NCBI RefSeq assembly: GCF_000374045.1 | Contig: NZ_KB893320.1 | Coordinates: 5,537 to 69,536 of the forward strand | Direction of reading: 5' to 3' | Origin: Segetibacter koreensis DSM 18137 | GTDB taxonomy: Bacteria; Bacteroidota; Bacteroidia; Chitinophagales; Chitinophagaceae | DNA length: 64,000 nt | Shown: positions 1-17,541 of the stretch, piece after piece | Position numbering within the stretch: position 1 is the stretch's first letter | How the letters are laid out: each line of letters opens with the position of its first letter | The notes under the pieces: model-generated | Database searches by the model: none | Told to the model about the DNA's origin: nothing | The model's input: only the letters and a program-made list of their open reading frames with translations | Translations under genes and position numbers: made by a program

Positions 1-239
1 AGAAGAAAACTAAGATGATTATAAACCAGTAAACTTATTATTTTTGATAACTGCTTTTACAGCAAACTATACAACTCTTCGCCAGCAAAACAGGTGGTCA
101 ATTTGCCACGAAATCAACTGGTGAACTTCAACGAAATATCCACAAAAACAGACCTTTTGGTACCACTTTAAAGTTTTAGATTAGAAAGACGATCTTCAGC
201 GACTTCTATTTCAGCTTACTCTTTTCCTGCTCGATCTGT

Positions 240-430
240 CTCATGTAAGAATAGAATGCCTTGGGCGTTAAGATCATTCACTTAATTAACTCTTATACAT
301 GGCCTTCAAGCCGATCCAATTTCCATACAACAAGTGTATCGCCTTTAGTAAGAGTATTTAATAATTTTATCAATTCAGGTCTTTCACAATTTGCTCGGGA
401 ATTTTCCGAAAAGATCTTATCACATCATGC
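240..430 (-). pseudogene. Decayed serine recombinase (resolvase/invertase) fragment
   Basis: Read on the minus strand, 385 down to 293 gives ERPELIKLLNTLTKGDTLVV followed by WKLDRL. This is the conserved stretch of the Hin/resolvase catalytic domain just before its helical region. A stop follows at 293-295, and beyond it VNDLNAQGILFL in another frame resembles the next part of the same domain. No start codon, catalytic serine region or C-terminal helix-turn-helix survives. The family assignment rests on the KGDTLVVWKLDRL block and is fairly safe; the gene is clearly not functional. It lies about 270 bp outside the left copy of the long direct repeat, so it may be the remains of the enzyme that once moved DNA here (inference). 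Confidence 0.72.
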
Positions 431-845
431 AATTGTCAATGCATCCAAATGCAAATTGTCATTCTGATCCTGCTTTTTGAATCTTATATCACCGTATTTC
501 ATATATTTTAAGATTTTGAAAGCATATTAATAGTTCTATTAAGACAGTCTCTATAAGAAGGCTTTTTAGAAAAAGGTATGCACCATATATTTTTTATAAT
601 TAGATTAATTAAAATAGTTTTTTATAAAGTTTTAGTAGCTTAGTTTTTAAGTAGGAGAGGAGTTTATAGAAAAACGACCGTTTTATTATAACTGCTACGG
701 AACGGTAAAAAATTTAGCGAAAGGTCGATAAGTGCACGAGATAATGTAAGTCGAATTAAACGGTCAGTCTAGCTGTGCTACCGTCAGGGTTCGGGAGGAG
801 ATAGGTACAAATACCACGTATAAAATAATGACCCTATTCACACGT
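431..845. other. Gene-free stretch containing the left direct repeat
   Basis: AT-rich sequence between the recombinase remnant and the end of kup. Apart from the 33-bp repeat at 661-693 I see no supported gene or RNA. A plus-strand open frame from 828 is the shadow of kup and is not counted. Confidence 0.6.
661..693 (+). repeat. Left copy of 33-bp direct repeat flanking the K+ block
   Basis: This 33-base stretch recurs at 13634-13666 in the same orientation with a single mismatch (G versus A at position 9 of the repeat). Its core is AAAACGACCGTTTT (671-684), a 6-bp inverted repeat around AC, followed by ATTATAACT. It lies about 150 bp beyond the 3' end of kup. It could be an attachment or recombination site bounding a mobile unit, or a shared operator for a TetR-type or similar regulator. 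The sequence does not decide between these. Confidence 0.85.
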
Positions 846-2825
846 TTAACTCTCGCGGGAAACGCCTTTATAATAAGCTCTTTTAAGCGATATGTTTGTT
901 ACCGGAGCTACTACCAGTGGCACCTTTTCGAATACAGCCTGGTCAAGGTCTATACCGTAAGCCTCACTATCGGACCTGGCGAGTCTAAGTATATTGAAAT
1001 AGCTGTTCAAAACAAATTTTTCACGGGGGGAAAATTCGTTGTCGTATGACAGGAACCTTTCAAGGATAATAAACTTGAAATCTTTGAGCCCATCTTTATG
1101 TATGTCAATGATACCGTTTGGTATCACTATCTCGTTATTGTTTATCATTTCTTCAACCACCTTTTTTAGCATTATGCCAATCCTGGGCTGTATCCGGAAA
1201 CCCAAATGAAAATCTACCCGTATTACCTTATCCTTAACCAATTCCTCCACTCCATAGTTCATGGTATAAGGGTCATCGGCTCTTTCGAAGTTGATAAACC
1301 AGTACGCATCGGCGCGTTTTACGGGATTACTGAAAATAGAATCCACGATCCTTTTTTCTATCTGTTTGTGGCTCTGCATTTTTGTTAGGTAGACCAAGTG
1401 GGTCGAATATTTTGGAATAGTGCTATCGTTAGATAGGCGCTCGAGTGCAGGCAGAACGTTATTTAAATTTACAAAAGTTAACAGCCGCAAGGTGATCTTC
1501 CGAGCATTATACCACACATACATGGTTGTAATGAGCCCAATTTCGAATACAAGGAAGAACAACCTTTTCAGCAGCTTGACGGCGTTGGCTGCAAAAAAAC
1601 ACGTTTCGACACAAACAAAAGCGGTAATGATAGCACCGACTATCCAGAACGGATAACGTTTTATATAACGTAGAAAGTAATACATAAGGCAAGTGGTCAT
1701 GAGCATGGCAACTGTTATTGAGAAACCGTAAGCTGCCGTCATAGACTCACTGGTTTTGAAATAAAGTACTACCAGCAGGCAACCGGTAAACAGTATCCAA
1801 TTTATGCTGGGAATATAGATCTGTCCCCTGATATTGGTGGGATATTTTACTTTAATACGCGGCCAGAAACCTAAACTGATCGCTTCGCTGATTAGTGTAA
1901 ATGAACCACTGATGAGAGCCTGGCTGGCAATAATGGATGCCAAAGTAGCGATCAGCACGGCGGGCAATAAAAATGAGGTAGGTACTATGGCAAAAAAAGG
2001 ATTAATGCCGCTAAGATTCTGTTTTTGCTGCAACAGCACCCATGCTCCCTGTCCGAGGTAATTGAGAACTAACGTACCCTTTACATAGATCCAGCTTAGC
2101 TGGATGTTCTGCCTTCCGCAATGCCCGAGATCGCTGTACAAAGCTTCGGCACCGGTTGTGCAAAGAAACACCGCACCAAGTAACCAAAATCCGCGTGGAT
2201 GCCCGACTAAAAGTTCAAAGCCGTAGACAGGGTTCAATGCTGCAAAAATCTGTGGATAGTGAATGATCTGGCTGATACCAAGTACTCCCATCATGGTAAA
2301 CCAGATAAACATAATCGGACCGAAAGAAGCCCCAACTACCTTGGTGCCGAACCGTTGAAAAAGAAAAAGCAACAAAATAATAACCAATACAATTTCTATA
2401 ACAAGGGCGTTGCCGGGTACAATATGCTCATGAAGTCCCTTTACCATATTTAACCCTTCTATGGCTGAAGTAACGGTAATTGGAGGTGTTATAATACCAT
2501 CGGCAAGCAAAGTGCCAGCCCCAATAATTGAGGGATAGACTAGGTTCTTTCCATATCTTCTTACCAGCGCATATAAAGAAAATACTCCACCTTCACCATG
2601 GTTATCAGCCTGCAGAGTTATTAAAACGTATTTGAAAGTAGTCTGCAGGGTAAGTGTCCAGAAGATACACGATATAGCCCCATAGACAAGGTCGGTATTT
2701 ATTCCGCCACCTTCTGTAAGAATTGTTTGAAAAGTATACAGCGGAGAAGTTCCAATATCTCCGTAAATAATACCTAATGCAACTAATAAGCCACCAACCG
2801 ATGCCCGTTTAGAGTGAGATGACAT
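846..2825 (-). CDS. kup: Kup-family potassium uptake permease
   Basis: Low-affinity K+ importer of the inner membrane, a proton-coupled carrier of the Kup/HAK/KT family. The 659-residue length fits the family. The N-terminus carries GDIGTSPLY (residues 22-30), the family signature, followed by GEGGVFSLYALVRR; about twelve hydrophobic helices fill the first 430 residues and a soluble C-terminal domain follows. The ATG at 2823-2825 starts right at the first helix, so the start is well placed. It is transcribed away from the kdp genes, with the 300-bp gap before the sigma-54 regulator lying between the two divergent units. Together they give a constitutive-type and an inducible high-affinity route for K+. 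Confidence 0.97.
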   Translation of the reverse strand: MSSHSKRASVGGLLVALGIIYGDIGTSPLYTFQTILTEGGGINTDLVYGAISCIFWTLTLQTTFKYVLITLQADNHGEGGVFSLYALVRRYGKNLVYPSIIGAGTLLADGIITPPITVTSAIEGLNMVKGLHEHIVPGNALVIEIVLVIILLLFLFQRFGTKVVGASFGPIMFIWFTMMGVLGISQIIHYPQIFAALNPVYGFELLVGHPRGFWLLGAVFLCTTGAEALYSDLGHCGRQNIQLSWIYVKGTLVLNYLGQGAWVLLQQKQNLSGINPFFAIVPTSFLLPAVLIATLASIIASQALISGSFTLISEAISLGFWPRIKVKYPTNIRGQIYIPSINWILFTGCLLVVLYFKTSESMTAAYGFSITVAMLMTTCLMYYFLRYIKRYPFWIVGAIITAFVCVETCFFAANAVKLLKRLFFLVFEIGLITTMYVWYNARKITLRLLTFVNLNNVLPALERLSNDSTIPKYSTHLVYLTKMQSHKQIEKRIVDSIFSNPVKRADAYWFINFERADDPYTMNYGVEELVKDKVIRVDFHLGFRIQPRIGIMLKKVVEEMINNNEIVIPNGIIDIHKDGLKDFKFIILERFLSYDNEFSPREKFVLNSYFNILRLARSDSEAYGIDLDQAVFEKVPLVVAPVTNISLKRAYYKGVSRES

Positions 2826-3123
2826 ATGCTGATAAATCTTACACTAAATATACAAACAATAGATAGTATTTAATGTTATTTAAGAATACTTGCTATTGCT
2901 ATTGTCTTCACATTGAGCGATATTAGCTTTTCCAGTGGATCATTATGTGTTACTTGACATCGTTGTCATAAGTTCCCGTAAATCGTTTAACCTGGATTAG
3001 GTCAGCGATCGCAAGGGTACTAATTATTACGGCCATTTCCCTTCTAAGCGTTTCGGCTTTTTTGTGACCTTACCAAAGCCTGATAGAAATTTTCACGCCA
3101 GAAATTACCATCTTTGTTCCTGG

Positions 3124-4461
3124 ATGACAGGAAAAATCCTGCTTATAGACGATGAAGAAAAGCTAAGAAGCCTTTTAGCACGACTGCTGAAACTGGAGGG
3201 TTATGCCATAACCGAAGCAGGCAACTTAAAAGTTGCTCATAAGGCTATAGATACAGAAGAACCGGATGTAGTGCTTTGCGATGTGAAATTACCTGATGGT
3301 AATGGTGTGGACTTTATCACTGAAATAAAGAAGAAACACCCACTTATCGAACTTATCATGCTTACCGCTTACGGCAATATACCTGATGGCATTCAGGCAA
3401 TGAAAAATGGTGCTTTCGATTACATAACAAAAGGAGATGATAACAACAAGGTAATTCCATTGTTAAGCAAAGCAATGGAAAAAGTACAATTGCAAAAAAG
3501 AGTGCTGCAGTTGGAAAGCCTTGTCGGAAGGAAATACAGTTTTGAAAGTATTGTCGGAAGCTCTCAACCAATCAGGTCAGCTATTGAGTTGGCGAAAAGA
3601 GTAGCCCCAACTGAAGCAACCGTCTTATTGTTGGGAGAAACAGGAACGGGTAAAGAAATTTTTGCCCAGGCAATACACAATGCAAGTTCAAAAGTGGCTA
3701 AGCCATTTATTGCTCTCAATTGTGCAGCTTTCTCAAAAGAGTTGTTGGAGAGCGAACTGTTTGGACATAAGGCAGGTGCATTCACCGGCGCAGTAAAAGA
3801 CAAGAAGGGATTAATTGAAGAAGCCAACGGAGGTACATTGTTTTTGGATGAAATTGGGGAGATGCCGGTTGATTTGCAAAGCAAGTTGTTACGGGTATTA
3901 GAAACAGGTGAGTTTATAAAAGTAGGTGATACCAAATCGTCAAAGGTCAGCGTTCGCATCATTGTAGCTACAAACCGAAACTTACTCGAAGAAGTGAAGG
4001 AAAGTAAATTTCGTGAAGACCTTTATTACAGATTGAACGTTTTCACCATTGACCTGCCATCGTTGCGGGAAAGAAAAGAAGATATTGCACTGTTAGCTGA
4101 CTACTACACAAAATTCTTTGCCGCTAAAACAAACAGAAAGATCAAAGGAATTACAAAAGAAGCGTTGAAATTATTGGAAGCACATTCATGGAAAGGCAAC
4201 ATCCGTGAATTAAAAAACATTGTAGAAAGAGCAGTAATATTAGAAGACAGTGAATACCTCACGACAAGTGTATTGCCATTCGACATTCAGAACGATACAG
4301 AAATTGCAGCCAATTCCTTTGACCTGTCTGCAATGGAAAAACAACACATTCAAAAGGTGTTAGCCTTCTCAAAAGGTAACAAAGCAGAAGCCGCCCGTTT
4401 GCTAAATATTGGTCTGACAACACTCTACAGGAAGCTGGAAGAATACGGCATAGCCAAATAG
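3124..4461 (+). CDS. Sigma-54-dependent response regulator of the kdp operon
   Basis: NtrC-family activator of 445 residues. Order: receiver domain with the acidic pair at D9/D10 and phospho-acceptor D53 in VVLCDVKLPDG; AAA+ domain with Walker A GETGTGKE, the GAFTGA loop that contacts sigma-54 and a Walker B LFLDEIGE; C-terminal Fis-type helix-turn-helix (NKAEAARLLNIGLTTLYRKL). The frame is open from 3064, but the ATG at 3124 places MTGKILLIDDEE where receiver domains begin, so I chose it. Being first in the kdp cluster and facing the same way, it very likely replaces KdpE here and activates a sigma-54 promoter for the downstream genes (inference). Its partner kinase would be the product of 11763-13493. 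Confidence 0.93.
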   Translation: MTGKILLIDDEEKLRSLLARLLKLEGYAITEAGNLKVAHKAIDTEEPDVVLCDVKLPDGNGVDFITEIKKKHPLIELIMLTAYGNIPDGIQAMKNGAFDYITKGDDNNKVIPLLSKAMEKVQLQKRVLQLESLVGRKYSFESIVGSSQPIRSAIELAKRVAPTEATVLLLGETGTGKEIFAQAIHNASSKVAKPFIALNCAAFSKELLESELFGHKAGAFTGAVKDKKGLIEEANGGTLFLDEIGEMPVDLQSKLLRVLETGEFIKVGDTKSSKVSVRIIVATNRNLLEEVKESKFREDLYYRLNVFTIDLPSLRERKEDIALLADYYTKFFAAKTNRKIKGITKEALKLLEAHSWKGNIRELKNIVERAVILEDSEYLTTSVLPFDIQNDTEIAANSFDLSAMEKQHIQKVLAFSKGNKAEAARLLNIGLTTLYRKLEEYGIAK

Positions 4462-4472
4462 CCAAACTCTTC

Positions 4473-4504
4473 CATTTTGAAAATGCACCCTTTCATTTTG
4501 AAAG
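4473..4504. promoter_or_regulatory. Paired CATTTTGAAA palindromic motifs, possible activator sites
   Basis: CATTTTGAAAATG (4473-4485) is a perfect palindrome around a G, and CATTTTGAAAG (4494-4504) repeats most of it 21 bp later, two helical turns apart. NtrC-type activators usually bind such paired sites 100-200 bp upstream of their promoter, and the first micropeptide of the kdp operon starts about 150 bp downstream. The second copy overlaps a terminator hairpin, so one of the two roles may be incidental. Confidence 0.4.
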
Positions 4505-4513
4505 GGTTTTTTG
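4488..4513 (+). terminator. Terminator after the sigma-54 regulator
   Basis: CCCTTTC and GAAAGGG form a 7-bp stem around ATTTT, followed by a run of T. It sits 27 bp after the regulator stop codon and separates that gene from the kdp structural genes, which therefore need their own promoter. Confidence 0.75.
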
Positions 4514-4647
4514 TTGCCCGAACCTCGTTCAATTTCCTTCCAATTTCGGCAAAGCCTCACTGGTTAAGCCTTTCATGCCTTTGCTCTTTACTTCATAATA
4601 AGGAGGCATCCCTTTTGGCATTATAGTCTGAAGAAAAAAGATTTGAG

Positions 4648-4791
4648 ATGAAAAGAGAAAAAAACATACAAACAAATTACTACGGGGATGAAGCAGCTAG
4701 TGGCAAAGATTTCCTGATGGTAATAATGGGTTTCCTGGTACTAATTGCATTGTCCTGGATTGCCTATTTCAAGCTAGGCTGGCTGCATTAA
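4648..4791 (+). CDS. Small single-helix membrane protein, first of kdp micropeptides
   Basis: A 47-residue frame beginning ATG AAA AGA. The first 20 residues are charged and polar (MKREKNIQTNYYGDE), the rest is one hydrophobic helix (DFLMVIMGFLVLIALSWIAY) ending FKLGWLH. An A/G-rich stretch 5-15 bp upstream could serve as ribosome site. It has the composition of a real small membrane protein and sits first in the kdp transcript. I do not recognise the family; a role with the Kdp pump is inferred only from position. Confidence 0.6.
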   Translation: MKREKNIQTNYYGDEAASGKDFLMVIMGFLVLIALSWIAYFKLGWLH

Positions 4792-4876
4792 ACGAAAAAG
4801 AAAGATGACCAGTGTCACCTTTGCCACCTACGCTGGTCATTGCAGTTACAAACTTGAACATGTAACATTATATCAC

Positions 4877-4987
4877 ATGCAAAAAGGAAACAAAATATCA
4901 AATGCTGCTTTGATTGTTTTAGCCTCGTTGATAGCTATAAGTCTCCTTTTCATTGTTTTTATTAAAACCAAAATATTCATTCACTAA
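4877..4987 (+). CDS. Small single-helix membrane protein, second of kdp micropeptides
   Basis: A 36-residue frame beginning MQKGNKISNAAL with one strongly hydrophobic helix of about 22 residues (LIVLASLIAISLLFIVF) and a basic tail KTKIFIH. A longer reading from 4805 exists, but its extra residues do not look like protein, so I chose the ATG at 4877. No clear ribosome site. It lies between the 47-residue frame and the 27-residue frame, in the same direction as kdpFABC. Family unknown. Confidence 0.45.
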   Translation: MQKGNKISNAALIVLASLIAISLLFIVFIKTKIFIH

Positions 4988-5000
4988 TAAATAATAAATC

Positions 5001-5084
5001 ATGCTAACGCTGATACTGATTGTTGCCGGCCTCGTCGGCTTCTGGCTTTTTTTCAAATTCATTGACTGGTTCGAAAAAATATAA
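5001..5084 (+). CDS. 27-residue membrane micropeptide before kdpF
   Basis: MLTLILIVAGLVGFWLFF followed by KFIDWFEKI: one helix and a short amphipathic, charged tail. The stop codon is 3 bp before the kdpF ATG, so the two are almost certainly translated together. Size and shape are KdpF-like, but it lacks the KPEKF ending. It could be a second regulatory or stabilising micropeptide of the pump (inference). Confidence 0.6.
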   Translation: MLTLILIVAGLVGFWLFFKFIDWFEKI

Positions 5085-5087
5085 ACT

Positions 5088-5165
5088 ATGACACTACTAT
5101 TCATTATCGCCATCATGGTCTTTATCTATTTATGTTATGTATTGATAAAGCCCGAAAAATTCTAA
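5088..5165 (+). CDS. kdpF: KdpF, small stabilising subunit of the K+-ATPase
   Basis: A 25-residue peptide, MTLLFIIAIMVFIYLCYVLI then KPEKF. KdpF proteins are single-helix peptides of 25-30 residues ending in a (R/K)PE(R/K)F motif, and this one matches both length and ending. It stabilises the KdpABC complex in the inner membrane. It lies 17 bp before the kdpA start, the position usual for the gene. Confidence 0.88.
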   Translation: MTLLFIIAIMVFIYLCYVLIKPEKF

Positions 5166-5182
5166 ACCAATCACAAGTAATC

Positions 5183-6883
5183 ATGACAACAGAAATTGCA
5201 GGCATCATCTTCATGTATGTACTTACCGTTGCGTTGGCTATTCCGCTGGGACGCTATATTGGTAGAGTGTACGAAGGCGATAAGACCTGGCTCGATAAAA
5301 TCTTGCATCCATTAGACAAAATTTTCTTCAAACTCAGCGGTATCAATCCTGCTAAAGAAATGAACTGGAAGCAACACCTAATGGCATTGCTTACCATTAA
5401 CCTGGTATGGTTCATTTTATCAATGCTCATACTGATGAATATGAGCTGGCTACCCCTCAATCCTGATGGTAATCCATCTATGCCGGCAGATCTTGCTTTC
5501 AATACCACCGTAAGCTTTGTCAGCAACACCAACCTGCAGCACTATTCGGGCGAAACAGGGGTTTCGTATTTAGGACAACTAACGCTGATGCTTTTTCAAT
5601 TCATCAGTGCTGCAACGGGTATGGCCGCATGTGTAGCGGTGTTTATGGCAATGAAAGAAAGAACGACAGAAAACCTGGGCAACTTTTACAACTTCTTCGT
5701 TAAATCGTGTACGAGAATATTATTGCCGCTGGCCATTGTAGTTGCATTGATACTTGCGTTCAACGGAACTCCAATGAATTTTGAAGGCAAGGCGCAATAC
5801 ATTTCCATGCAGGGCGATACCGTCCATGTAAGCCGTGGACCGGCAGCCGCTATGATCGCCATAAAACAACTGGGAACGAACGGAGGTGGCTACTATGGCC
5901 CCAACTCTGCGCATCCTTTAGAGAACCCCAATTATTTAACCAACATAGTAGAAAATATCAGTATTATTCTTATCCCGATTGCAATGGTGTTTGCTTTAGG
6001 ATACATTATCAAAAGGCGAAGGTTTGCATGGATGGTGTTTGGTGTAATGACGCTTGGATTCTTTTTATTACTGTTTAATGCGGTTTATAATGAAATGCAT
6101 GGAAACCCGATGATCGGCCAGATGGGTATTTCGCAACCATTGGGGAGCATGGAAGGAAAAGAAGTGCGTTTTGGGCCGGCCGCATCGGCATATTGGGAAG
6201 TAACAACCACTGTTACCTCAAACGGTTCCGTAAATGCCATGCACGACAGCTTTACCCCGCTCGCCGGCATGAGCGCTTTGCTGGGAATGATGGTTAACTC
6301 CTTCTATGGTGGTGTGGGCGTGGGTTACCTGAACTTTTACATCTTCATTATTATTGCTGTATTCATCAGCGGGTTGATGGTAGGACGAACACCAGAGTTC
6401 CTCGGCAAGAAAATAGAAGCAAAAGAGATGAAGATCGCTGCCCTCATTGCACTGCTGCATCCGTTGTTAATTCTTGCGGGAACTGCATTAGCATCGTACC
6501 TGTTTGCGCACAATCCCAGTGCCTATGCGGACTGGTTAAATAACCCGGGGAACCACGGCTTCAGCGAAATGCTCTACGAGTTCACTTCTTCATCTGCCAA
6601 CAACGGAAGTGGTTTTGAGGGCTTGGGTGACAACACCCCGTTTTGGAACATCGCCTGCGGAACAGTGATGTTGCTTGCACGGTTTTTACCCATCATCGGG
6701 CCCGTTGCTATTGCCGGCATTTTGGCAAAGAAAAAATACATTCCTGAAAGTGCCGGTACCTTAAAAACAGATACAAACACATTTGGTGTTATGGTATTTG
6801 CCGTAATATTTATTGTGGCTGCTTTATCATTTTTCCCTGCATTAACTCTCGGACCAATTGCAGAATTTTTTGGAATGAAATAA
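5183..6883 (+). CDS. kdpA: KdpA, K+-translocating subunit of the Kdp ATPase
   Basis: Channel-like membrane subunit that binds and passes K+ through the KdpFABC pump. The four selectivity-filter segments are present: SFVSNTNLQHYSGE, TNGGGYYGPNSAHP, FTPLAGMSALLGMM and FTSSSANNGSGFEG. The length, 566 residues, is typical. The frame is open from 5132 but the ATG at 5183 (MTTEIAGIIFMYV) gives the usual N-terminus and follows kdpF directly. kdpB starts 12 bp after the stop. Confidence 0.97.
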   Translation: MTTEIAGIIFMYVLTVALAIPLGRYIGRVYEGDKTWLDKILHPLDKIFFKLSGINPAKEMNWKQHLMALLTINLVWFILSMLILMNMSWLPLNPDGNPSMPADLAFNTTVSFVSNTNLQHYSGETGVSYLGQLTLMLFQFISAATGMAACVAVFMAMKERTTENLGNFYNFFVKSCTRILLPLAIVVALILAFNGTPMNFEGKAQYISMQGDTVHVSRGPAAAMIAIKQLGTNGGGYYGPNSAHPLENPNYLTNIVENISIILIPIAMVFALGYIIKRRRFAWMVFGVMTLGFFLLLFNAVYNEMHGNPMIGQMGISQPLGSMEGKEVRFGPAASAYWEVTTTVTSNGSVNAMHDSFTPLAGMSALLGMMVNSFYGGVGVGYLNFYIFIIIAVFISGLMVGRTPEFLGKKIEAKEMKIAALIALLHPLLILAGTALASYLFAHNPSAYADWLNNPGNHGFSEMLYEFTSSSANNGSGFEGLGDNTPFWNIACGTVMLLARFLPIIGPVAIAGILAKKKYIPESAGTLKTDTNTFGVMVFAVIFIVAALSFFPALTLGPIAEFFGMK

Positions 6884-6895
6884 AACGAACTAATC

Positions 6896-8947
6896 ATGTC
6901 AGTACATAGAAGAAAAAATAACTTATTTGAACCTAAACAGGTAAAAGAAGCGGTTACTCAATCGTTCAAAAAACTGAACCCGGTTATCCAGTTCCGCAAC
7001 CCGGTAATGTTTACCGTATGGATCGGAACATTGGTGATGGCGTTTGTGAGCGTCTGGATCGCCGCCGGTGAGACCAGCCAGGGAAGCCTGGCCTATAACA
7101 TGGTTATTACGGCCATCCTTTTTATTACATTGTTGTTTGCCAATTTCGCCGAGGCAATTGCAGAAGCAAGAGGAAAAGCACAGGCAGACAGCCTGCGAAA
7201 AGCAAGAGAAGACACGCCTGCTAAAAAAGTATTTTCTGTTGGAGAAATATATGTGGACGAAATAAAAGTCATTCCTTCATCGCAATTGCGGAAAGGTGAC
7301 CTGTTTGTTTGCGAAGCCGGCGATGTGATCGCAATGGATGGCGAGATCGTTCAAGGAATCGCCACTATAGACGAGTCGGCAATCACTGGTGAATCGGCTC
7401 CCGTTATTCGGGAAGCAGGCGGCGATAAATCATCCGTAACAGGCGGAACAAAAGTGTTATCGGATAGGATAAAAGTAAAAGTCACCACAGAGCCAGGTGA
7501 AACATTTTTAGATAAAATGATCGCATTGGTCGAAGGTGCTTCCAGGCAAAAAACGCCCAACGAAATTGCCCTCACCATTTTATTAGCTTCGTTCACATTG
7601 GTGTTCGTTATTGTTTGCGTTACGCTAAAACCATTCGGTGATTATGCCAACACGCCCATTACCATTGGTGCATTCATTTCGTTGTTTGTCTGTCTTATTC
7701 CAACTACCATCGGCGGCCTGTTATCGGCCATCGGTATTGCCGGGATGGACAGGGCGTTAAGAGCGAACGTAATTACCAAAAGCGGCAAAGCGGTTGAAAC
7801 TGCCGGTGACCTTGACACTATCCTTCTCGATAAAACAGGAACCATCACTATTGGCAATCGTAGGGCGACAAACTTTTGGTCTACCGACGGTATTACCGAA
7901 AATGAGTTTATCGAACTCGCCACTTGGGGGTCATTGGCTGATGAAACACCGGAAGGAAAATCAATCGTGGAATTGGCTGCATCGAAGGGTGTTTCTAAAA
8001 CGAAGGAAGCAGGAATGACCTTCATCGAATTTACTGCAGAAACAAGGAGCAGTGGTGTAAACTTAGGCAACGGTACAAATATCCGCAAGGGCGCATTCGA
8101 TGCTATCAGGAAGCTGGTGGAAAAAGCCGGAAATAGAGTGCCGGAAGAAGCATCAGACCGTGTTAAGCTGATTGCAGAGAATGGTGGTACCCCGCTGGTT
8201 GTTTCAAAAAACGGCGAAGTAAAAGGGGTAATCGAACTGCAGGACATCGTAAAGCCGGGAATACAGGAACGGTTTGAACGGCTTCGCAAGATGGGTGTAA
8301 AAACGGTTATGGTAACGGGCGATAACCCGTTAACAGCAAAATACATTGCTGAAAAAGCTGGGGTAGATGATTTTATTGCAGAAGCAAAACCGGAAGACAA
8401 AATGAATTACATCCGCAAAGAGCAACAAGGCGGAAAACTGGTGGCTATGATGGGCGATGGAACAAACGATGCTCCAGCCCTTGCACAGGCAGATGTGGGC
8501 GTTGCTATGAACAGCGGCACACAGGCAGCAAAAGAAGCGGGCAACATGGTAGACCTAGACAATGATCCGACAAAGCTGATAGAAATTGTTGAAATTGGCA
8601 AGCAGCTATTAATGACCCGCGGCACCCTGACCACCTTTTCTATTGCCAATGACGTAGCAAAATACTTTGCCATTGTGCCGGCGCTATTCATAGCGTCAAT
8701 TCCTGCATTGCAAGGCTTAAATATCATGGGCTTGCACAGTCCTGAAAGTGCTATTCTTTCTGCCGTCATTTTCAATGCCATTATTATTCCCTTATTAATT
8801 CCATTGGCATTAAAAGGCGTTGCGTATAAGCCAATAGGGGCAAGTGCATTGCTACGTAGAAACTTATTGATCTATGGCTTCGGCGGCGTGATAGTGCCTT
8901 TCATCGGAATTAAACTGATTGACCTGTTGGTATCTAACTGGTTTTAA
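6896..8947 (+). CDS. kdpB: KdpB, ATP-hydrolysing subunit of the Kdp ATPase
   Basis: P-type ATPase subunit (683 residues) that drives K+ import. Visible motifs: ITGESAPVI in the actuator domain, LLDKTGTIT with phosphorylated Asp 312, [14 protein letters not shown], and the hinge [20 protein letters not shown]. The N-terminal hydrophobic pair and C-terminal helices are in place. Intact and normal in length. It lies between kdpA and kdpC, whose start is only 19 bp after the kdpB stop. Confidence 0.98.
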
Positions 8948-8966
8948 AGTAAAAATCAAAAAAACA

Positions 8967-9530
8967 ATGAAACAAAATATTTTACCGGCAATACGATTGA
9001 CAATCGTGTGTATGGTGTTTTTTATGGGTGTCTATACTTTAATCATCTGGTTGCCGGCACAGGCAGCGCCGGGTAAGGGGAAAGGTGAAACGGTAATGGC
9101 AAACAACAGGATTGTTGGCTGGAAACTTTTAGGACAAAAGTTTACTGATGACCAATACTTCTGGAGCCGGCCTTCAGTAGTCGATTATCATGCTGACGGT
9201 TCTGGCGGAAGTAATAAAGGGCCAACCAATCCTGATTATTTAAAACAGGTGCAGGACAGGATCGATACATTTTTGGTTCATAATCCCGGTATTCAAAAAA
9301 CCGATATTCCCTCTGACCTGGTGACTGCATCGGGAGCCGGGCTTGATCCGCATATTTCGGTACAAGGTGCGTATGTGCAGGTGAAAAGAGTCGCATCCGC
9401 AAGAAGTATTTCTGAAGCAAAGGTGAAAGCGCTGGTAGATCAACATATAGAGAAGCCACTGCTTGGCTTGTTTGGAACAGAAAGAGTGAATGTGCTGCAA
9501 TTGAATATTGATTTAGAGAGTTTGAAATAA
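8967..9530 (+). CDS. kdpC: KdpC, chaperone-like subunit of the Kdp ATPase
   Basis: A 187-residue subunit with one N-terminal membrane helix and a periplasmic domain. Signature stretches QKFTDDQYFWSRPSVVDYHA, GGSNKGPTNPDYL and SGAGLDPHISVQGA are present, including the DPHIS block near the end. The ATG at 8967 is chosen over an earlier in-frame codon at 8919 that overlaps kdpB. It completes kdpFABC. Confidence 0.96.
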   Translation: MKQNILPAIRLTIVCMVFFMGVYTLIIWLPAQAAPGKGKGETVMANNRIVGWKLLGQKFTDDQYFWSRPSVVDYHADGSGGSNKGPTNPDYLKQVQDRIDTFLVHNPGIQKTDIPSDLVTASGAGLDPHISVQGAYVQVKRVASARSISEAKVKALVDQHIEKPLLGLFGTERVNVLQLNIDLESLK

Positions 9531-9533
9531 AAA

Positions 9534-10625
9534 ATGACGATGAAAAGGATTTTTATAGGCATTGCCCTTGTTTGTGGAATGAATGCAAAAGCACAAGATT
9601 CCAGTAAGCAACGGAGTAATCCTTTGACATTTAGTGGTTATATCGAACCTTATTATGGCTATGACTTTAATAAGCCGGTGGATAATAATCGCCCGGCTTT
9701 CGTTTATAGCTATAACAGGCATAATGAATTCAATGTAAATCTCGCATACGTGAAAGCAAGCTATAATGAAGACAGGGTTCGTGGCAATTTTGCAATCGGT
9801 GCAGGAACTTACATGAATGCCAATTATTCAGCAGAAGCTGGAGTTCTAAAAAATATTTTTGAGGCGGATGCAGGTTTTAAAATATCCAAGAAGAAAAACC
9901 TTTGGATGGATGCCGGTATAATGCCATCGCATATTGGCTTTGAAAGTGCTGTTGGAAAAAATTGCTGGACCCTGACAAGGAGTATCGTTGCCGACAACAC
10001 TCCTTTCTTTGAAAGTGGGGCAAAAATTAGTTACACTACTGATGACACTAAGTGGTTTTTTAGCGCAATGGGTTTGAACGGATGGCAAAGAATTACACGT
10101 GTAGCCGGAAATTCATTAATGAGCTGGGGCACCCAAATAACGTTTACTCCATCTTCTAAAGTGAGCATAAACTATAGTACCTTTTTTGGGACTGATTTGC
10201 CCGATACTGTAAGAGCATGGCGCTACTATCATAACTTATATGGAATTTTCCAGTTCACCGGCAAAGTAGGGTTGATACTTGATCTTGACCTTGGACAACA
10301 ACAGTTAAGCAAAGGAAGTTCTAAACTATATACATGGTACTCACCTGTCGCTATTCTTCGCTTTACACCTAATGCACAATGGGCATTTGCTGTAAGAGGA
10401 GAATATTACAGCGATGAACATGGAGTTATGATCGGTACAAAGACGCACGATGGATTTAAAACTTTCGGAGCTTCGTTCAAGATTGACAGAAATATAGGCG
10501 ACCACTTTGTTTGGAGAACCGAAATAAAAACTTTAAGCAGTAAAGATGCGGTTTTCGTAAAACCAAATACAACCCCAACTACTGGTAATACTGTATTAAC
10601 AACATCATTTGCTATTAGTTTTTAG
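9534..10625 (+). CDS. Outer-membrane beta-barrel porin of the kdp operon (BBP2/OmpL-like)
   Basis: 363 residues with a signal peptide ending at MNAKAQD, then alternating aromatic beta-strands (LTFSGYIEPYYGYDF, WMDAGIMPSHIGFES, WAFAVRGEYYSDEH) typical of the putative beta-barrel porin-2 family, finishing in the aromatic terminus SFAISF. It lies between kdpC (3 bp) and kdpD (no gap), so it is co-transcribed. A plausible role is letting K+ cross the outer membrane when the pump is induced; this is inference from position. Confidence 0.85.
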   Translation: MTMKRIFIGIALVCGMNAKAQDSSKQRSNPLTFSGYIEPYYGYDFNKPVDNNRPAFVYSYNRHNEFNVNLAYVKASYNEDRVRGNFAIGAGTYMNANYSAEAGVLKNIFEADAGFKISKKKNLWMDAGIMPSHIGFESAVGKNCWTLTRSIVADNTPFFESGAKISYTTDDTKWFFSAMGLNGWQRITRVAGNSLMSWGTQITFTPSSKVSINYSTFFGTDLPDTVRAWRYYHNLYGIFQFTGKVGLILDLDLGQQQLSKGSSKLYTWYSPVAILRFTPNAQWAFAVRGEYYSDEHGVMIGTKTHDGFKTFGASFKIDRNIGDHFVWRTEIKTLSSKDAVFVKPNTTPTTGNTVLTTSFAISF

Positions 10626-11762
10626 ATGAATGAAACAGACGATAGGGAAAAAAGGGCTAGCGGATTTTTGAAGCTGACGCAGAGCGACAATCGTGGCAAG
10701 CTTAAGATATATATTGGCATGAGCGCCGGCGTGGGAAAAACTTATCGGATGTTGCAAGAGGCGCATGCATTGATACAGAACGGTGTGAATGTGAAGATCG
10801 GTTACATCGAAACGCACAGCAGAAAGGAAACGCAGGCGTTAACCGCAGGTTTGCCAATTATTCCACGGCGCGAGGTTTTTTACAAAGGCAAACGGCTGGA
10901 AGAATTAGACGTACAAGCTATCCTGTTGCTTCATCCGCAAGTAGTGATTATTGATGAATTGGCACACACAAATATCCCTGGCAGTAAGAATGAAAAAAGA
11001 TGGCAGGATGTATTGGATATTTTAGATGCAGGTATTGATGTAATATCAGCCGTTAACATCCAGCACATTGAAAGCATTAATGAAGACGTAAAAGAAATTA
11101 CGGGAATTGAAGTAAAGGAACGGATACCGGATAAGATGCTGCAAATAGCAGACGAAGTGGTAAATATTGATTTAACAGCAGACGAACTTATATCACGTCT
11201 GAAAGAAGGTAAGATTTATGATCACGCAAAAGTGCAACAAGCCCTGGCAAATTTTTTCCAGCCTAACCAGATTTTACAACTGCGTGAACTGGCATTGAAG
11301 GAGGTTGCTGGCCAGGTAGAAAGAAAAGTTGACTACCAGATAACAGCAAAGCAAACGACTTTCCGACATGAACGTTTTTTGGCTTGTGTGTCGTCCAACG
11401 AGGAAGTAGCGCAGCGAATAATCCGTAAGACGGCAAGGCTTGCCTCGTACTACAACAGCAAGTGGTACGTGTTGTATGTGCAAACGGCAAAAGAATCAGC
11501 CGATAAGATACCTTTAGCAGCTCAACGGCATTTAATAAACAACTTTAAGAATGCGACGGAACTAGGTGCGGAGGTCATCCAGAAAAAAGGGGATAATGTA
11601 GCAAAGGTTATTATTGAAACAGTAAACGAAAAATCAATAACCACCCTATGCTTAGGGAAACCGCACCTCAACCTCTTCCAGGTTATTTTACGAACCAGCG
11701 TGTTTAACCAGTTGTTAAAGACCCTTTCTAAAAATAATATCGATATTGTTATTTTCTCATAA
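10626..11762 (+). CDS. kdpD: KdpD N-terminal sensor half with universal-stress domain
   Basis: 378 residues that match only the cytoplasmic N-terminus of classical KdpD. Walker A-like GMSAGVGKTY is at residues 31-40 and DELAHTN at 110-116, followed by the rest of the KdpD domain and a UspA-like domain to the end. There are no membrane helices and no kinase core, which a full KdpD of about 900 residues would have. The kinase is encoded by the next gene, which starts directly after this stop. So K+ sensing and phosphorylation sit on two polypeptides here. Confidence 0.92.
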   Translation: MNETDDREKRASGFLKLTQSDNRGKLKIYIGMSAGVGKTYRMLQEAHALIQNGVNVKIGYIETHSRKETQALTAGLPIIPRREVFYKGKRLEELDVQAILLLHPQVVIIDELAHTNIPGSKNEKRWQDVLDILDAGIDVISAVNIQHIESINEDVKEITGIEVKERIPDKMLQIADEVVNIDLTADELISRLKEGKIYDHAKVQQALANFFQPNQILQLRELALKEVAGQVERKVDYQITAKQTTFRHERFLACVSSNEEVAQRIIRKTARLASYYNSKWYVLYVQTAKESADKIPLAAQRHLINNFKNATELGAEVIQKKGDNVAKVIIETVNEKSITTLCLGKPHLNLFQVILRTSVFNQLLKTLSKNNIDIVIFS

Positions 11763-13493
11763 ATGGCAGTAAGTGTAAAAAAGAAAATATGGCTGGGTAC
11801 ATTGTTCCTGTTTCTTCTGTTATTGTTGACAGGTGGTGTAGGTATTTATTACATGGCAAAATTGAAAAATGATGGGAAAAATGTGCTAAAAGCAAACTAT
11901 GAAAGTTTGTCTTACTGCCATAACATGCAACAGCAATTGGGTAATATCGACAGGCAGTACATTCAGTCGGTGCACAATTTTGAAGATGCTCTAAAAAGGC
12001 AGGAAAGCAACATTACCGAACCGGGGGAAAACAAAGTGACAAACGATTTGAGAAACGATTTTAATAAACTCCAAGCTGGTGATACAAGCAGGCAAAATCT
12101 ACATGCGATCGAGAGTGGTATACAAACTATTCTTTCTCTGAATATGGAAGCCATTCAAAGGAAAAGTAAAGCAGCAGAGGAAACTGCTGACAATGCGCTC
12201 ACAATAATCATTGCACTGGGCGTAGTTGTTTTCCTGATCGCTTTTACATTTATTGTCAACTTCCCTTCTGTAGTTACCAATCCTATTAATCGTTTAGCAG
12301 AAGCTATAAAGGAAATTGCAAATAAGAATTATACTCACCGCATTCATATCGACAATAAGGACGAATTTGGCAAACTGGCTGATGCTTTTAACGAGATGGC
12401 CGAACGACTTCAGTATTTTGAAAGCAGCAATTTAAATAAATTAATGTTTGAGAAAAGCCGTGCAGAAGCAGTTATTAATAGTTTAAAAGATGCAAGCATA
12501 GGGATCGATAAAAACAACATGGTGCTCTTTTCCAACTACCAGGCATTACAACTTTTAGGTTTACGGGCAGAAGATGTAGTAGGCAAGCCTGTTGATGATG
12601 TAAAAAACAAGAATGACCTGTTTCGTTTTTTGATTGAGAAGGAAACGACCACACCTTTTAAAATTGTAGTGGACAACAGGGAGAATTACTTTGTAAAAGA
12701 GATAATTGAAGTAGCGCAGGGAGAAGCTAAAAACAAAGTCATAGTTTTAAAAAACATCACTTCTTTTAAAGAATTAGATGTAGCGAAGACAAACTTCATA
12801 GCAACTATATCTCATGAATTAAAAACACCTTTGGCGTCTTCAGACTTAAGTTTGAAATTATTGGAAGATCAGCGTATCGGTCAATTAACGTCGGAACAAA
12901 AAGAGTTAATTGAAAGCCTGAAACATGACAACCAACGAATGCTTAAAATTCTAAGTGAATTATTGAACATGTCACAGGTGGAAGCCGGCCGGATACAACT
13001 AAACGTTAATACAGTAAGTCCCAATGAAATTGTTGAAAATGCAATTGAGTCGGTGTCCGGCAATGCAAAAGAAAAGGATATAGAAATTAAGTACATCTCC
13101 GATAAAAATTTGCCTTCAATCCAGGCAGATGCAGATAAAACAACATGGGTTTTAAATAACTTTTTGGCGAACGCAATAAAATATTCTTTCAACAATAGTT
13201 CTATTGAAGTAGAAGCATCACAGCAAAATGGCTCTGTAGTTTTCTCTGTTAAAGATTATGGGCCGGGAATAGCTAAAGAATATTTGCCAAGATTATTTGA
13301 AAGATATTTCCAGGTTCCGGGTTCAAAAGAAAAGGGTACAGGTCTAGGTTTAGCCATTTCAAAGGAGTTTGTCGAAGCTCAGCAAGGAAAGATTTGGGTA
13401 GAAAGTGAAATAGGGAAAGGATCTGTGTTTTACTTCCAACTACCCGCAAATAGCTTAAGCTTATTAGGAACAACTACTTTAAAGCTACCATGA
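11763..13493 (+). CDS. Membrane histidine kinase, partner of the split KdpD
   Basis: 576 residues. Two membrane helices (about 10-30 and 148-168) bracket a helical extracytoplasmic region; then HAMP (VTNPINRLAEAIKEIA), a PAS-like domain (about 235-330), HisKA with His 351 in ISHELKTPLASS, and an ATPase core with GTGLGLAISKEFVEA near the end. It begins at the base after the kdpD stop, so the two are translationally coupled. It probably phosphorylates the NtrC-type regulator at 3124-4461 in response to signals relayed by the KdpD half (inference). Confidence 0.9.
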   Translation: MAVSVKKKIWLGTLFLFLLLLLTGGVGIYYMAKLKNDGKNVLKANYESLSYCHNMQQQLGNIDRQYIQSVHNFEDALKRQESNITEPGENKVTNDLRNDFNKLQAGDTSRQNLHAIESGIQTILSLNMEAIQRKSKAAEETADNALTIIIALGVVVFLIAFTFIVNFPSVVTNPINRLAEAIKEIANKNYTHRIHIDNKDEFGKLADAFNEMAERLQYFESSNLNKLMFEKSRAEAVINSLKDASIGIDKNNMVLFSNYQALQLLGLRAEDVVGKPVDDVKNKNDLFRFLIEKETTTPFKIVVDNRENYFVKEIIEVAQGEAKNKVIVLKNITSFKELDVAKTNFIATISHELKTPLASSDLSLKLLEDQRIGQLTSEQKELIESLKHDNQRMLKILSELLNMSQVEAGRIQLNVNTVSPNEIVENAIESVSGNAKEKDIEIKYISDKNLPSIQADADKTTWVLNNFLANAIKYSFNNSSIEVEASQQNGSVVFSVKDYGPGIAKEYLPRLFERYFQVPGSKEKGTGLGLAISKEFVEAQQGKIWVESEIGKGSVFYFQLPANSLSLLGTTTLKLP

Positions 13494-14575
13494 GCTCCGA
13501 ATCGGGAAATCCGCTAAAGTTAAATGATATTTCGGCGAGCAATGCTTATCAAATCTTTATTCACAATTTTACGGTCTAACCCTTATAATAAGATACTCCG
13601 ATTTCTAACTGTTTACATCCCATTCTGCGATGCAGTTTATAAAAAAACGACCGTTTTATTATAACTTACTAGAATATAGTCCCAGTTTAACCTTTATTCC
13701 ACCATTAACTATTCTTCCTTCCAAAGGATCGTAAACATCTTTGAACATCACCTCCATCCAATCCACAAAGACATCCAATACTGGCCTTTGTGATACTCCA
13801 GTATTACGCTTTTTACCTGCTACAAAGCTGTGAATGAGAAACGGGATAAAAAGATTAAGATCGATTTGTTTGAGGAATTGAGTTATGAGGAAGCAAAGAC
13901 TAATTAGAAATTTTTAAAAAGAGAATTCGAGTCCTACACATTTTGTTTCCCGTATTTGTTTTACAATCGTCCAAGTTAAAGTTGCAATTAGGTAAAAAAA
14001 TGCGAAATAAGTATATCTATTCACAAATAAAGCTTGCATCCATACCCTTCCGCGATCTACATCTGATATTATTGCTATAACCAGTGTCGACACAGCCATA
14101 ATTGATAGCCAGAACTAGCATATGCCATAAATGAATTTTAGGATTAGCTCTAACGGAGAATATTTCACGCGTTCCATTTACAAATAGAATACAAAGTTGC
14201 ACTTATAGAACGGCTTTGAAACTGTTTAAACGGGAAAACTAACCTAAGTAGTAAAATAAGTTGAAATGTTTTTGAACCAGAGAAGCGTTTGGATCCTTTT
14301 TTACCCTTTGTATAACGATTAACTGTTAAATAAGAGGCTAGTACAGTATTGATTTTTTTACTACCAGTAATTGAATGTGGACGACCGGTTAAAGGGTCAA
14401 TTTTAAAATAAGTGAATAAATCTTCCGACCTACCATATTCGAAATAAAAACCCGTTGACCATTGCTAGAATTTTTTTTCTAAGGCACCATACAGCATCTT
14501 CATAAGGTGCTTGTGCGTCTGTTGATTTATGAGGATAATTGACTTTTGAATTCTTCCTTTAATATATCTACCTTA
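13494..14575. other. Decayed coding sequence between kdp and the phytochrome gene
   Basis: Besides the right direct repeat, the stretch holds only fragments. On the minus strand about 13668-13790 reads VYDPLEGRIVNGGIKVKLGL up to a stop, resembling a C-terminal beta-strand region; 13914-14099 reads a two-helix membrane peptide beginning MAVSTLVIAIISDVDRGR; and 14160-14500 reads FYFEYGRSEDLFTYFKIDPL then TGRPHSITGSKK, with a stop and a frame change just before it. None has a believable start and I recognise none. On the plus strand about 13818-13907 ends KIDLFEELSYEEAKTN. I take it as the graveyard of several genes. Confidence 0.5.
13634..13666 (+). repeat. Right copy of 33-bp direct repeat flanking the K+ block
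   Basis: Same orientation as 661-693 with one mismatch. The palindrome AAAACGACCGTTTT is at 13644-13657. It lies 141 bp after the stop of the last kdp gene, mirroring the left copy just beyond kup, so the pair encloses the whole potassium block of about 13 kb and nothing else. Confidence 0.85.
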
Positions 14576-16852
14576 TCAATTATATGGCAGATAAAGCGTA
14601 AATGTTGCCCCTTGGTCGTTATTTCGCTGTGCAGTAATGGCACCTTTATGATTTTCCATAATCTTTTTAGAGATTGCGAGGCCTATTCCTGTCCCTTTAA
14701 ATTGAGGATCGTTGTGGCCCCGATAAAAAATATTAAAAAGCAGTTGGTGAAGCCGTGGATCAAATCCAATTCCGTTGTCTACTACAGCTATTTTATAATA
14801 GCTAACCCGAGGCAACAGAACAGCGTCAACCACATCTATTCCCTTAGTTTTATTGCAGGTGATTGATAGGTGAAGCTTACGATCAGGAGAAGAAAATTTT
14901 AATGCATTGCCAATTAGATTTGTAAATAATTGCTGAATTTGATGTGGTATTACGTCAACATTTTGCGGTAAAAGAGATGCACTAATAATTGCACCGTTTT
15001 CTAAAATTTCTTCCTCAAAGCTCTTCAACACTTCTTCTAAAATTACATTTAAATCGGATTTTGTAAAATCACTCTTTCTTCCCTCAGTAAGCGAATAAGT
15101 AAGAATATCATTGACAAGATCTGTCATTCGTTTGGTTGACTTTTGAATTCGGTCAACTGACTGCTTGATTTCTTCCGAGATAGACTGATCTTTGGTTCCG
15201 GCAATTCTTGAAGAAAAAATTTGGATCTTCCTTAAGGGCTCTTTTAGATCGTGAGAGGTTATCCAATTGATGTTAGAAAGTTCTTGGTTGGCTTTTTGCA
15301 ATTTGTCGTTAAGAATACGTAGCCTGAAGTCTTCACTTTTCAAATGTAGAAGATGGAAGTGGTTTTGTAAAGCGGTGGCAAAACGACTGGCTGCATTAAC
15401 CTCGGCAATGCACCACTCTTTGCTTTGGTTACGGACTCTTTCCTTCCAAAGAGCAAAGGAAGTACGTGGGGTAAGCATATTTGAAATACCATCTCTTTGC
15501 ACCGCCTTGTTAGGATTGCCTGCCCAATTAATCGTTTTTTCTACTTCTTCCCGAAACCAAATGATACAATCTTCCTTCGGTCGTCCCAGTGAATGATAAA
15601 CAATGCCGGATGCATATTGACTAATGTCTTCGGCACCAGGGTAGCGAGTATGCAATGCAGATGTTGCAAAGTTGATTCCAGTGATATTGTTATCAATCCA
15701 ACCCAACAACTTTGTTATCTCTTCTCGTGATGGCACCAACCCTTTTTCAAAAAATTCTCCCCGGTGTAAAATGATTACACCAGAGGCTCCACACACCGCT
15801 AGTAAAGAACTGAATTGTTCAAACTTCAAACTAAAATCCTCCTCAGCGTTTATTTTACTCAGAAGTTGCTGCAGATGAGCCTCTACTTGAATGTTTACTT
15901 CATGCTCTTCTGCTACCTGTCGCACCTTTATTTGCGAAGAAAGAAAATGTGCTTGCAATAAAGCTCGCTGCCTGATAACGAAAGAAATTGTCTTGGCCTG
16001 CATGTGATGACAGGCAATAAGGCCCCAGAGCTTTCCATCTTGTATAAGTGAAATGGTTAATGTTGCCATTACACCCATATTTTTTAAATATTGTATGTGG
16101 ATCGGGGAGACGCTACGCAAGCCCACATCACTCAAATCCAGTGTTTTTTCAGTTCCCTCGTCAATTGTTAATAGGGGGACTGGTTTATAATCTACATTAG
16201 CAATAATGCGCAACTGTTGACGCATATATAATGCTCTTGCCTGTGCGGGGATGTCGGTATGCGGATAATGAAGCCCAAAAAAAGGTTCCAAGCCTTCCCG
16301 CTTGCTTTCTGCATATACTTCACCGTTGTACTCTCTGTCAAACCGGTAAATCATAACGCGGTCATACCCTGTTATTTTTCTAGTTTCATCGGCAATGTTT
16401 TGACATAACTGTTGTAGTGATCTTGCTCTTTCAATAAGTAGAACAAATTCTCTGGTTTGTTCAAATAGCTCACTATCCTCTTGACGATCGTTGTTAGATG
16501 CTTCAAATTCAATAATACGTAGGTGATTAACTGTATGACTAATTATATCGTATGAACCTCCTCTTATTTTAAGTGAGAAGGGCTTAAAAGCCGAATTCGG
16601 GCTTAGAAGATAGCTTTCCAGTTCAAACCACTCTTTTTGAAGTACGGAGGAAAGAGAATGTCCAAGTAGATCAGCCGGAACTTCGTCAAAAAGCAATTCA
16701 GAGTTCGCACTGCAAAATTCAATAGTATTTGTTTTTTTATTCACCCCAAGTAGAAACCCATGGGGCTGAATGCTGCCGGGAATGTGGATTGGCTCACTCT
16801 CACAAGTATTAATTTTTGCTACTCCACGATTTACAATGTCCTTGATTTTCAT
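14576..16852 (-). CDS. Bacteriophytochrome histidine kinase
   Basis: Red/far-red light sensor kinase of 758 residues with the PAS-GAF-PHY-kinase layout. Cys 17 in NTCESEPIHIPG is where bacteriophytochromes attach biliverdin; IPGSIQPHGFLLG follows. The GAF domain has YPHTDIPAQAR (Asp 200) and CHHMQ, both chromophore-pocket motifs, and the PHY tongue has PRTSF (462-466). The kinase has His 534 in TSHDLKEPLRKI and an ATPase domain ending GTGIGLAISKKI. No response regulator or haem oxygenase lies beside it, so it is an orphan in this window and signals to something elsewhere. Confidence 0.93.
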   Translation of the reverse strand: MKIKDIVNRGVAKINTCESEPIHIPGSIQPHGFLLGVNKKTNTIEFCSANSELLFDEVPADLLGHSLSSVLQKEWFELESYLLSPNSAFKPFSLKIRGGSYDIISHTVNHLRIIEFEASNNDRQEDSELFEQTREFVLLIERARSLQQLCQNIADETRKITGYDRVMIYRFDREYNGEVYAESKREGLEPFFGLHYPHTDIPAQARALYMRQQLRIIANVDYKPVPLLTIDEGTEKTLDLSDVGLRSVSPIHIQYLKNMGVMATLTISLIQDGKLWGLIACHHMQAKTISFVIRQRALLQAHFLSSQIKVRQVAEEHEVNIQVEAHLQQLLSKINAEEDFSLKFEQFSSLLAVCGASGVIILHRGEFFEKGLVPSREEITKLLGWIDNNITGINFATSALHTRYPGAEDISQYASGIVYHSLGRPKEDCIIWFREEVEKTINWAGNPNKAVQRDGISNMLTPRTSFALWKERVRNQSKEWCIAEVNAASRFATALQNHFHLLHLKSEDFRLRILNDKLQKANQELSNINWITSHDLKEPLRKIQIFSSRIAGTKDQSISEEIKQSVDRIQKSTKRMTDLVNDILTYSLTEGRKSDFTKSDLNVILEEVLKSFEEEILENGAIISASLLPQNVDVIPHQIQQLFTNLIGNALKFSSPDRKLHLSITCNKTKGIDVVDAVLLPRVSYYKIAVVDNGIGFDPRLHQLLFNIFYRGHNDPQFKGTGIGLAISKKIMENHKGAITAQRNNDQGATFTLYLPYN

Positions 16853-17059
16853 AGAATGGATAGTAATTAAACTTTTAACTGTGCGATATTACAGGAATAG
16901 CTCCAATATTAAGAAGATATTTTGTTTGAGTAAGAAACGGCCACCAGAGGGAGTTTTATTGGAAGCAGGGGCGGTACTTATTCAGAGACAGGATGATCAT
17001 TGCTAAAGACGTGTTTTAAGTACAAAGGACAGGAATTGGAAGCAGAGCTTTGAAGGGCG

Positions 17060-17241
17060 ATGTCTGGTGGTCTTAATTACGCAATCTATGAAATTTGGAT
17101 GGATGGAGATATCTTTTCACGATTAGTCCTTACGAAGATGAATGTGATAAGTTTTGTTGGATAGCGAAAGAATCAGGTATTGATCTGGAATTTGTCAGTG
17201 TAATTGGTGCTGCTATTGAAAAAAATTATTTAGGTAGCTAA
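17060..17241 (+). pseudogene. Frameshifted small hypothetical gene
   Basis: An ATG at 17060 opens MSGGLNYAIYEIWMDGD, but the continuing protein-like sequence is in another frame: WRYLFTISPYEDECDKF then CWIAKESGIDLEFVS, ending GAAIEKNYLGS at the stop 17239-17241. Joining them needs one slip near 17105. Together they give about 60 residues. I do not recognise the family; the second half has good amino-acid composition, so a recently broken small gene is more likely than chance. Confidence 0.4.
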
Positions 17242-17394
17242 CCTGTGTGCCGCTTAAAAGATAAATATCAAGAAACGATATATTTTTTTATGCCCTTTTT
17301 AAAAGATCTTAAAATAATTTAAGCATTAGTATTGATACTTGCTCCTAACTTCATTGCTTAATCAAAACTAGCTGCATAATTTATTTAATTTAAT

Positions 17395-17541
17395 ATGCAG
17401 CAAACATTTATTCAAACAGTTCAGGCTTACACTTTGAAATTTAACCGCCTTCTTTATCCTATCAGGTATACGATTTTATCCCAAGACCCATTACACTTTG
17501 GAATAGTAATATTAGCCGAAAAAGATTCGGAAGGAATTTGA
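17395..17541 (+). CDS. Possible 48-residue hypothetical protein
   Basis: Open frame MQQTFIQTVQAYTLKFNRLL to EKDSEGI. The composition is plausible, but there is no clear ribosome site, no recognised family and no neighbour that would explain it. It could equally be the N-terminal stub of a longer lost gene. Confidence 0.3.
   Translation: MQQTFIQTVQAYTLKFNRLLYPIRYTILSQDPLHFGIVILAEKDSEGI

Follow-up and report, generated by a model that had tools for sequence, protein, structure and literature searches.

How did a block of potassium-transport genes in Segetibacter koreensis DSM 18137 come to lie between two copies of a short direct repeat, and can it still move? In the window, that is, the whole stretch of 64,000 nucleotides analysed here, the original prediction saw a mobile unit carrying two K+ systems, with a shared operator of one regulator as the alternative. 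The features on which the answer draws are listed below in window coordinates.

278..502, complement strand: small serine resolvase relic, approximately the first 75 codons, with several stops (PF00239)
598..624, complement strand: accessory motif, putative res site II, between the left site I and the resolvase relic
661..693, forward strand: left repeat copy, probable site I of a decayed res site (repeat search, homologue comparison)
846..2825, complement strand: kup, K+ transporter (PF02705, 1.1e-144)
3124..4461, forward strand: sigma-54-dependent response regulator (PF00158, PF00072)
5183..6883, forward strand: kdpA (matches records annotated kdpA)
6896..8947, forward strand: kdpB (named from sequence)
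8967..9530, forward strand: kdpC (PF02669, 6e-68)
9534..10625, forward strand: outer-membrane porin, BBP2 (PF07642, 7.9e-97)
10626..11762, forward strand: KdpD sensor part without the kinase (PF02702, 3.1e-92; KdpD_non_kinase model below cut-off)
11763..13493, forward strand: separate histidine kinase (PF00512, PF02518)
13634..13666, forward strand: right repeat copy, probable bare site I (repeat search)

Between the repeat copies, kup diverges from a row formed by the regulator, kdpABC, the porin, KdpD and the kinase. The regulator-kdpABC-kdpD-kinase order is ordinary and was found whole in 16 of the 20 kdp loci of relatives (of the other four, three are truncated by a stretch or contig boundary and one lacks a match to the regulator), with the porin also present in four of the 16. 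The location of kup beside the regulator is unusual: the two loci among the 20 that contain kup come from a single genus and have it at the opposite end, facing the kinase gene, and in none of the 20 does it lie upstream of the kdp regulator, so that the original prediction was not contradicted by the same kup-kdp order lacking the repeat in relatives. KdpA is encoded in 103 of the 195 genomes of the family and twice in the genome under study, and was not found in nine genus mates, two of which are less than 90% complete. The second kdp operon of this genome is complete (contig C24:1183-11565, L005) and starts approximately 1.2 kb from the contig end; its KdpA is 92% identical to that of the block, DNA identity is 78-79%, and the 18 kb fetched contain neither kup nor a copy of the 33-bp repeat. 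On plasmids, kdpA is represented by 464 records; the one examined, from Bacteroides, has 10 annotated features and no kup.

The repeat pair itself is real and exceeds chance. The copies, which have the same orientation and 32 of 33 positions identical, as originally predicted, lie 152 bp beyond the 3' end of kup and 140 bp beyond the kinase stop codon, close to the estimated 150 bp outside the outermost genes and, as had also been noted, downstream rather than upstream of the genes. In inverted orientation, at most 23 positions agree, and the copies are therefore direct repeats. Sequence likeness breaks off sharply at either edge, the flanks having one 16-bp match (BLAST, E 0.35) and nothing further in common. 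A search of the genome (6,104,304 bases in 73 contigs) with up to three mismatches recovered these two copies only, compared to none for the reversed control, so that the genome-wide search proposed earlier did not reveal a sequence recurring at many promoters; furthermore, no copies were detected across 98 relatives, nine of them from the same genus. The next best sites in the window, setting aside the complements of the copies themselves, are 12 mismatches away. The 33-bp repeat is an imperfect palindrome with arms of 16 and 15 nt, AGTTTATARAAAAACG and, complemented, AGTTATAATAAAACG, about a central AC, and the edges of the repeat coincide with those of the palindrome. The core AAAACGACCGTTTT had been described as a palindrome, which is inexact: its arms, AAAACG and CGTTTT, are symmetric, but the central AC is not, leaving two mismatches to its own complement. 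Site I of small serine resolvases is an imperfect palindrome of approximately 28-34 bp with a central dinucleotide, and the repeat has this form.

A resolvase does adjoin the left copy, in ruins. The decayed serine recombinase that the original prediction placed outside this copy matches the Pfam Resolvase model (PF00239) with 34.7 bits against a cut-off of 23.3 and contains three internal stops within window positions 278-484; at the residue where this family has its catalytic serine, the sequence seems, by eye, to have been altered. A distance of 158 bp separates the left copy from the ATG of the relic (502, complement strand), which puts the copy upstream, within what would be the resolvase control region, whereas no resolvase adjoins the right copy. 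A search of 396 genomes from the order with the relic fragment yielded 30 loci, which are distributed over 21 genomes; 29 of the loci lie outside the genome under study. Leaving out the locus itself (L041) and two with short upstream sequence (L057 and L070), the core AAAACGNNCGTTTT was found, with up to two mismatches and between -320 and -60, upstream of 19 of 27 resolvase loci, against 0.6 expected from the remainder of the same loci, and was missing at this stringency in eight. The 19 loci are not independent: they come from 15 genomes, with 16 belonging to one family (f18) and one each to three others, and the only one from the family of the genome under study, L061, has a broken resolvase gene too. 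A second motif, roughly CAAAAAACTGGTNTACNNAATCNAAGT, accompanies the core in 14 loci, in 12 of which (L046, L047, L049, L052, L056, L058, L059, L060, L063, L065, L068 and L069), 11 of these again from f18, the two are spaced by 67-68 bp, the motif pattern having been drawn from the same loci in which the spacing was counted. The left copy is separated by 60 bp from its putative accessory motif, which has five mismatches to the 27-nt pattern derived from the homologues. In this layout, one accessory part appears to accompany the crossover part of a res site, as in Sin. Because the related resolvases have sites of this kind in front of their own genes, the 33-bp repeat is very probably the site I, or crossover site, of a small serine resolvase. 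The result also describes, at the sequence level, a res site common to many related resolvases. As a separate observation, L058 and L066 have similar site arms but not the same central dinucleotide: on the gene strand, one has AC and the other GT.

The core by itself is a poor guide. The exact 15-mer occurs 21 times in 17 of the 396 genomes, compared to 40 occurrences of the reversed 15-mer as counted from the list of matches, although the latter has GC where the core has CG and is not a matched control. These counts indicate that the core alone is not diagnostic, whereas its location upstream of resolvases is. Among the 19 places outside the genome under study, three have a resolvase within the 3-kb locus (L117, L119 and L126), and a fourth, L129, is an orphan site in genome G398. 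A relaxed 22-nt pattern matched 16 contigs of the genome collection, but none of the 16 stretches fetched (3.2-8 kb) contained a resolvase in tblastn searches with nine homologues, and these matches were accordingly set aside as due to chance; viral contigs yielded no match to either of two patterns of the repeat. Pairs comparable to that around the block were sought as well. Neither 18 stretches around homologues nor two more of one plasmid contained a matching second site; L091 and L098 have two cores each, but the arms differ, so neither forms a matching pair. Across the 20 kdp loci of relatives (342,163 bases), 13 core matches with up to two mismatches were found, none of them forming, by eye, a matching pair around the operon. 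In five genomes of one genus, all three sites found adjoin their own resolvase, with no orphan.

G398 is the one other genome in which an orphan site was found. It carries two identical 30-bp sites, in inverted rather than direct orientation, 26.8 kb apart (C3:77926-104718, L148 and L149). Downstream of one site, beyond the interval between the two, come a PIN-domain gene and a resolvase gene that is intact, and the genes between the sites encode a TrwC-type relaxase, a ParA-like protein and an SSB. Orphan sites at the edge of plasmid-like genes thus occur elsewhere, but the support from a single inverted case is weak.

Searching the genome with the left unit uncovered two more decayed resolvase-res relics, at C22:3053-3472 and C2:74735-75082; a tRNA-Ser gene and a tyrosine integrase are found near the latter. 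All three relics have site I, the spacer and gene remains in common, and in each of the three pairwise comparisons no more than 2 bp separate the end of the homology from the outer edge of site I. The common stretches differ by 22-27%, and the left res site is some 8-9 bp shorter between its two parts than the sister relics. The C2 and C22 relics have in common a gap, and after it a stretch, that set them apart from the left relic and might reflect the spread of a defective copy. A weight matrix found one site each in the C22 (15,000 bases) and C2 (19,901 bases) stretches and only the two known sites in C7:1-69536; there are thus three relics with one site each and one orphan at the far end of the block. 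The two copies bounding the block differ at one of 33 positions, compared to 4 to 10 of 33, ungapped, for the five other pairs of site copies in the genome.

That orphan is bare. No accessory motif was found within 13301-14300, nor any resolvase match, and the DNA on both sides of the right copy is unrelated to the left res unit. As for the wrecked genes reported outside this copy, 13667-14576 contains only short open stretches, the longest of 99 residues, which may be gene remains. The comparison with related genomes for an empty site, also proposed originally, came to nothing, with no syntenic place for the right flank (13667-18900) in nine genus mates and partial or short matches only. Beyond the right copy, window positions 14576-18805 encode a phytochrome-type kinase and a second PAS histidine kinase. 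Further along, 19070-26155 and 36510-39005 form a possible defence region, with a methylase-like gene in two adjoining frames (19070-20251, scanned, and 20258-22240), a KAP NTPase, a YhcG-type nuclease and a type I restriction-like helicase.

The simplest event yielding this arrangement is recombination at site I that placed the block between two sites. Judging from the sequence, we put the probability that the kup-kdp block was joined at this site by site-specific recombination and is now frozen there at approximately 60%. The resolvase would once have worked in this genome, probably as part of an integrative or plasmid-like element, and its strand exchange at site I would be expected to fall on the central AC. 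The K+ genes would have arrived on a DNA circle with one such site, which the resolvase joined to the resident site, leaving the block between a full, though decayed, left res site and a bare right site I in direct repeat. While the resolvase was active, the same reaction could have deleted the block as a circle; once its gene broke, the block would have been stuck in place. The failure to find kdpA in nine genus mates and the unusual place of kup speak for this history. Against it count the failure to find an empty site, a donor or a circle, the missing accessory part of the right copy, the five genomes of one genus with no orphan site, the inverted pair of G398, the eight homologue loci in which the core was not found, their concentration in one family, and the second kdp operon, which has no such repeat.

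The strongest competing explanation is that two resolvase-res elements inserted separately on either side of the K+ genes, the right one decaying to site I, with no joining recombination. The presence of three such relics in the genome indicates that copies have spread, and the gap and stretch common to C2 and C22 are what would be expected of copies of one defective element. Furthermore, the orphan of G398 retains a short stretch that by eye resembles the res site of another genome, consistent with a truncated copy. However, the right copy has retained no spacer or gene at all, and yet matches site I at 32 of 33 positions. Given that the pair differs at 1 of 33 positions and the relics by 22-27%, one event making both copies is favoured over two old insertions: under even, unselected drift, the probability of no more than one change in 33 is 0.003 at 22% divergence and 0.012 at 18%. 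We therefore regard two insertions as conceivable but unlikely.

Alternatively, the repeats could be the attL and attR sites of an integrative element whose integrase, of the tyrosine or large serine type, has been lost. A block with direct repeats at its ends would fit, as would the genes to the left of the resolvase relic on the same contig, where remnants of an SSB, an IS21 IstB and a MobC/NikA-like protein (the last below the Pfam cut-off) suggest that this region may be what is left of an integrative or plasmid-like element. The same core, however, precedes many small resolvases and accompanies three relics in this very genome, and no integrase was detected among the block genes scanned. 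Integrative elements usually target tRNA genes, and neither tRNA nor tmRNA genes were found in window positions 1-20000 or in C7:1-5600. This possibility appears improbable. Still less credit is due to the idea of a shared operator or a two-way terminator located 3' of both kup and the kinase gene, to which the short distance of the copies from the last stop codons (140-152 bp) and the potential for hairpin pairing (-5 to -8.7 kcal/mol, z -1.5 to -2.2) might point. These hairpins are A-T-rich and of modest stability, only two copies exist in 6.1 Mb, none of them at the second kdp operon, and one of the two sits in the control region of a resolvase relic; the original prediction had likewise doubted the operator on account of the downstream location of both copies. 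Finally, although the draft assembly consists of 73 contigs, chance or an assembly artefact can practically be dismissed, considering the extent of identity against the next best sites in the window, and the fact that the two copies differ, have unrelated flanks and lie within one contig of 158.8 kb.

Joining of the block by site-specific recombination followed by freezing retains one part of the mobile unit originally proposed, namely, the link to a serine recombinase and a unit bounded by recombination sites. Its present-day mobility is unsupported, because the relic is broken, the left res site is 8-9 bp short and the right copy has no accessory part. What we infer beyond the observed arrangement is the past mobility of the block, including its integration as a unit, the direction of that event and earlier excision, as well as its present inertness. 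The broken relic is the single PF00239 match in the genome at E <= 0.001, and since the assembly is 99.97% complete (73 contigs), the block probably has no means of movement of its own now. In principle, the pair could be a substrate for a resolvase brought in by a plasmid.

How does this arrangement compare with known systems? A full-text search with the 11-nt cores AACGACCGTTT and AACGGTCGTTT returned three papers, none of them on a recombination site as judged by title, sequences broken by spaces or given only in figures escaping such a search, and nothing close to resolvase-bounded cargo or to kup/kdp islands appeared among the titles of the matches listed. The finding is a variant of known resolvase biology. 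Sin is described as a small serine recombinase that uses a crossover site I and one accessory site II (resH), acts selectively on directly repeated sites and, in its wild-type form, requires two full sites, with recombination between two sites I being confined to activated mutants (PMC2764113). Joining at a bare site I would therefore need a less controlled reaction. The likeness to Sin/resH consists in a small serine recombinase, a site I with a putative accessory part, and direct repetition, the layout here being predicted from sequence; the site sequences differ, and here one of the two partners is bare, consisting of site I, and is separated from the other by 13 kb of K+ genes.

The Tn3-derived miniature elements known as TIMEs end in Tn3 inverted repeats, whereas the unit common to the relics described here ends at site I itself. 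TIMEs are similarly small relics and reportedly can mobilise cargo as mosaic non-autonomous transposons (PMC4133298). The Mpi invertase of Bacteroides fragilis is reported to recognise repeats of the form ARACGTTCGTN (PMC8375218) and to flip promoters (PMC4747536). Although the half-site AAACG/CGTTT is common to these repeats, as given there, and the 33-bp repeat, the latter forms direct repeats 13 kb apart with an accessory motif beside one of them and AC at its centre. Membership of the Mpi family is not supported: two homologues scored 76 and 84.7 against an NCBIfam cut-off of 272, and the relic fragment gave no match to the Mpi model at E <= 0.01. When two homologues were tested, the model of XisF, the serine recombinase that excises the fdxN element, gave the highest scores, 102 and 116 bits, but these are far below its cut-off of 375, and XisF is much longer (465 positions).

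In pdif modules, the cargo lies between short recombinase sites and depends for its movement on a recombinase encoded elsewhere. Those of Acinetobacter plasmids are reported to use Xer recombination (PMC11705084); the block resembles them as site-bounded cargo and would differ in the recombinase involved. It is a speculative and rather doubtful extension that there might be a serine-resolvase counterpart of pdif modules, in which circles with a bare site I and adaptive genes would enter a resident res site and freeze once the resolvase dies. If so, small resolvases, which are usually seen as housekeeping functions of plasmids and transposons, would, in addition, deposit site-bounded cargo in chromosomes, and such cargo would come to light in a search for orphan sites I.
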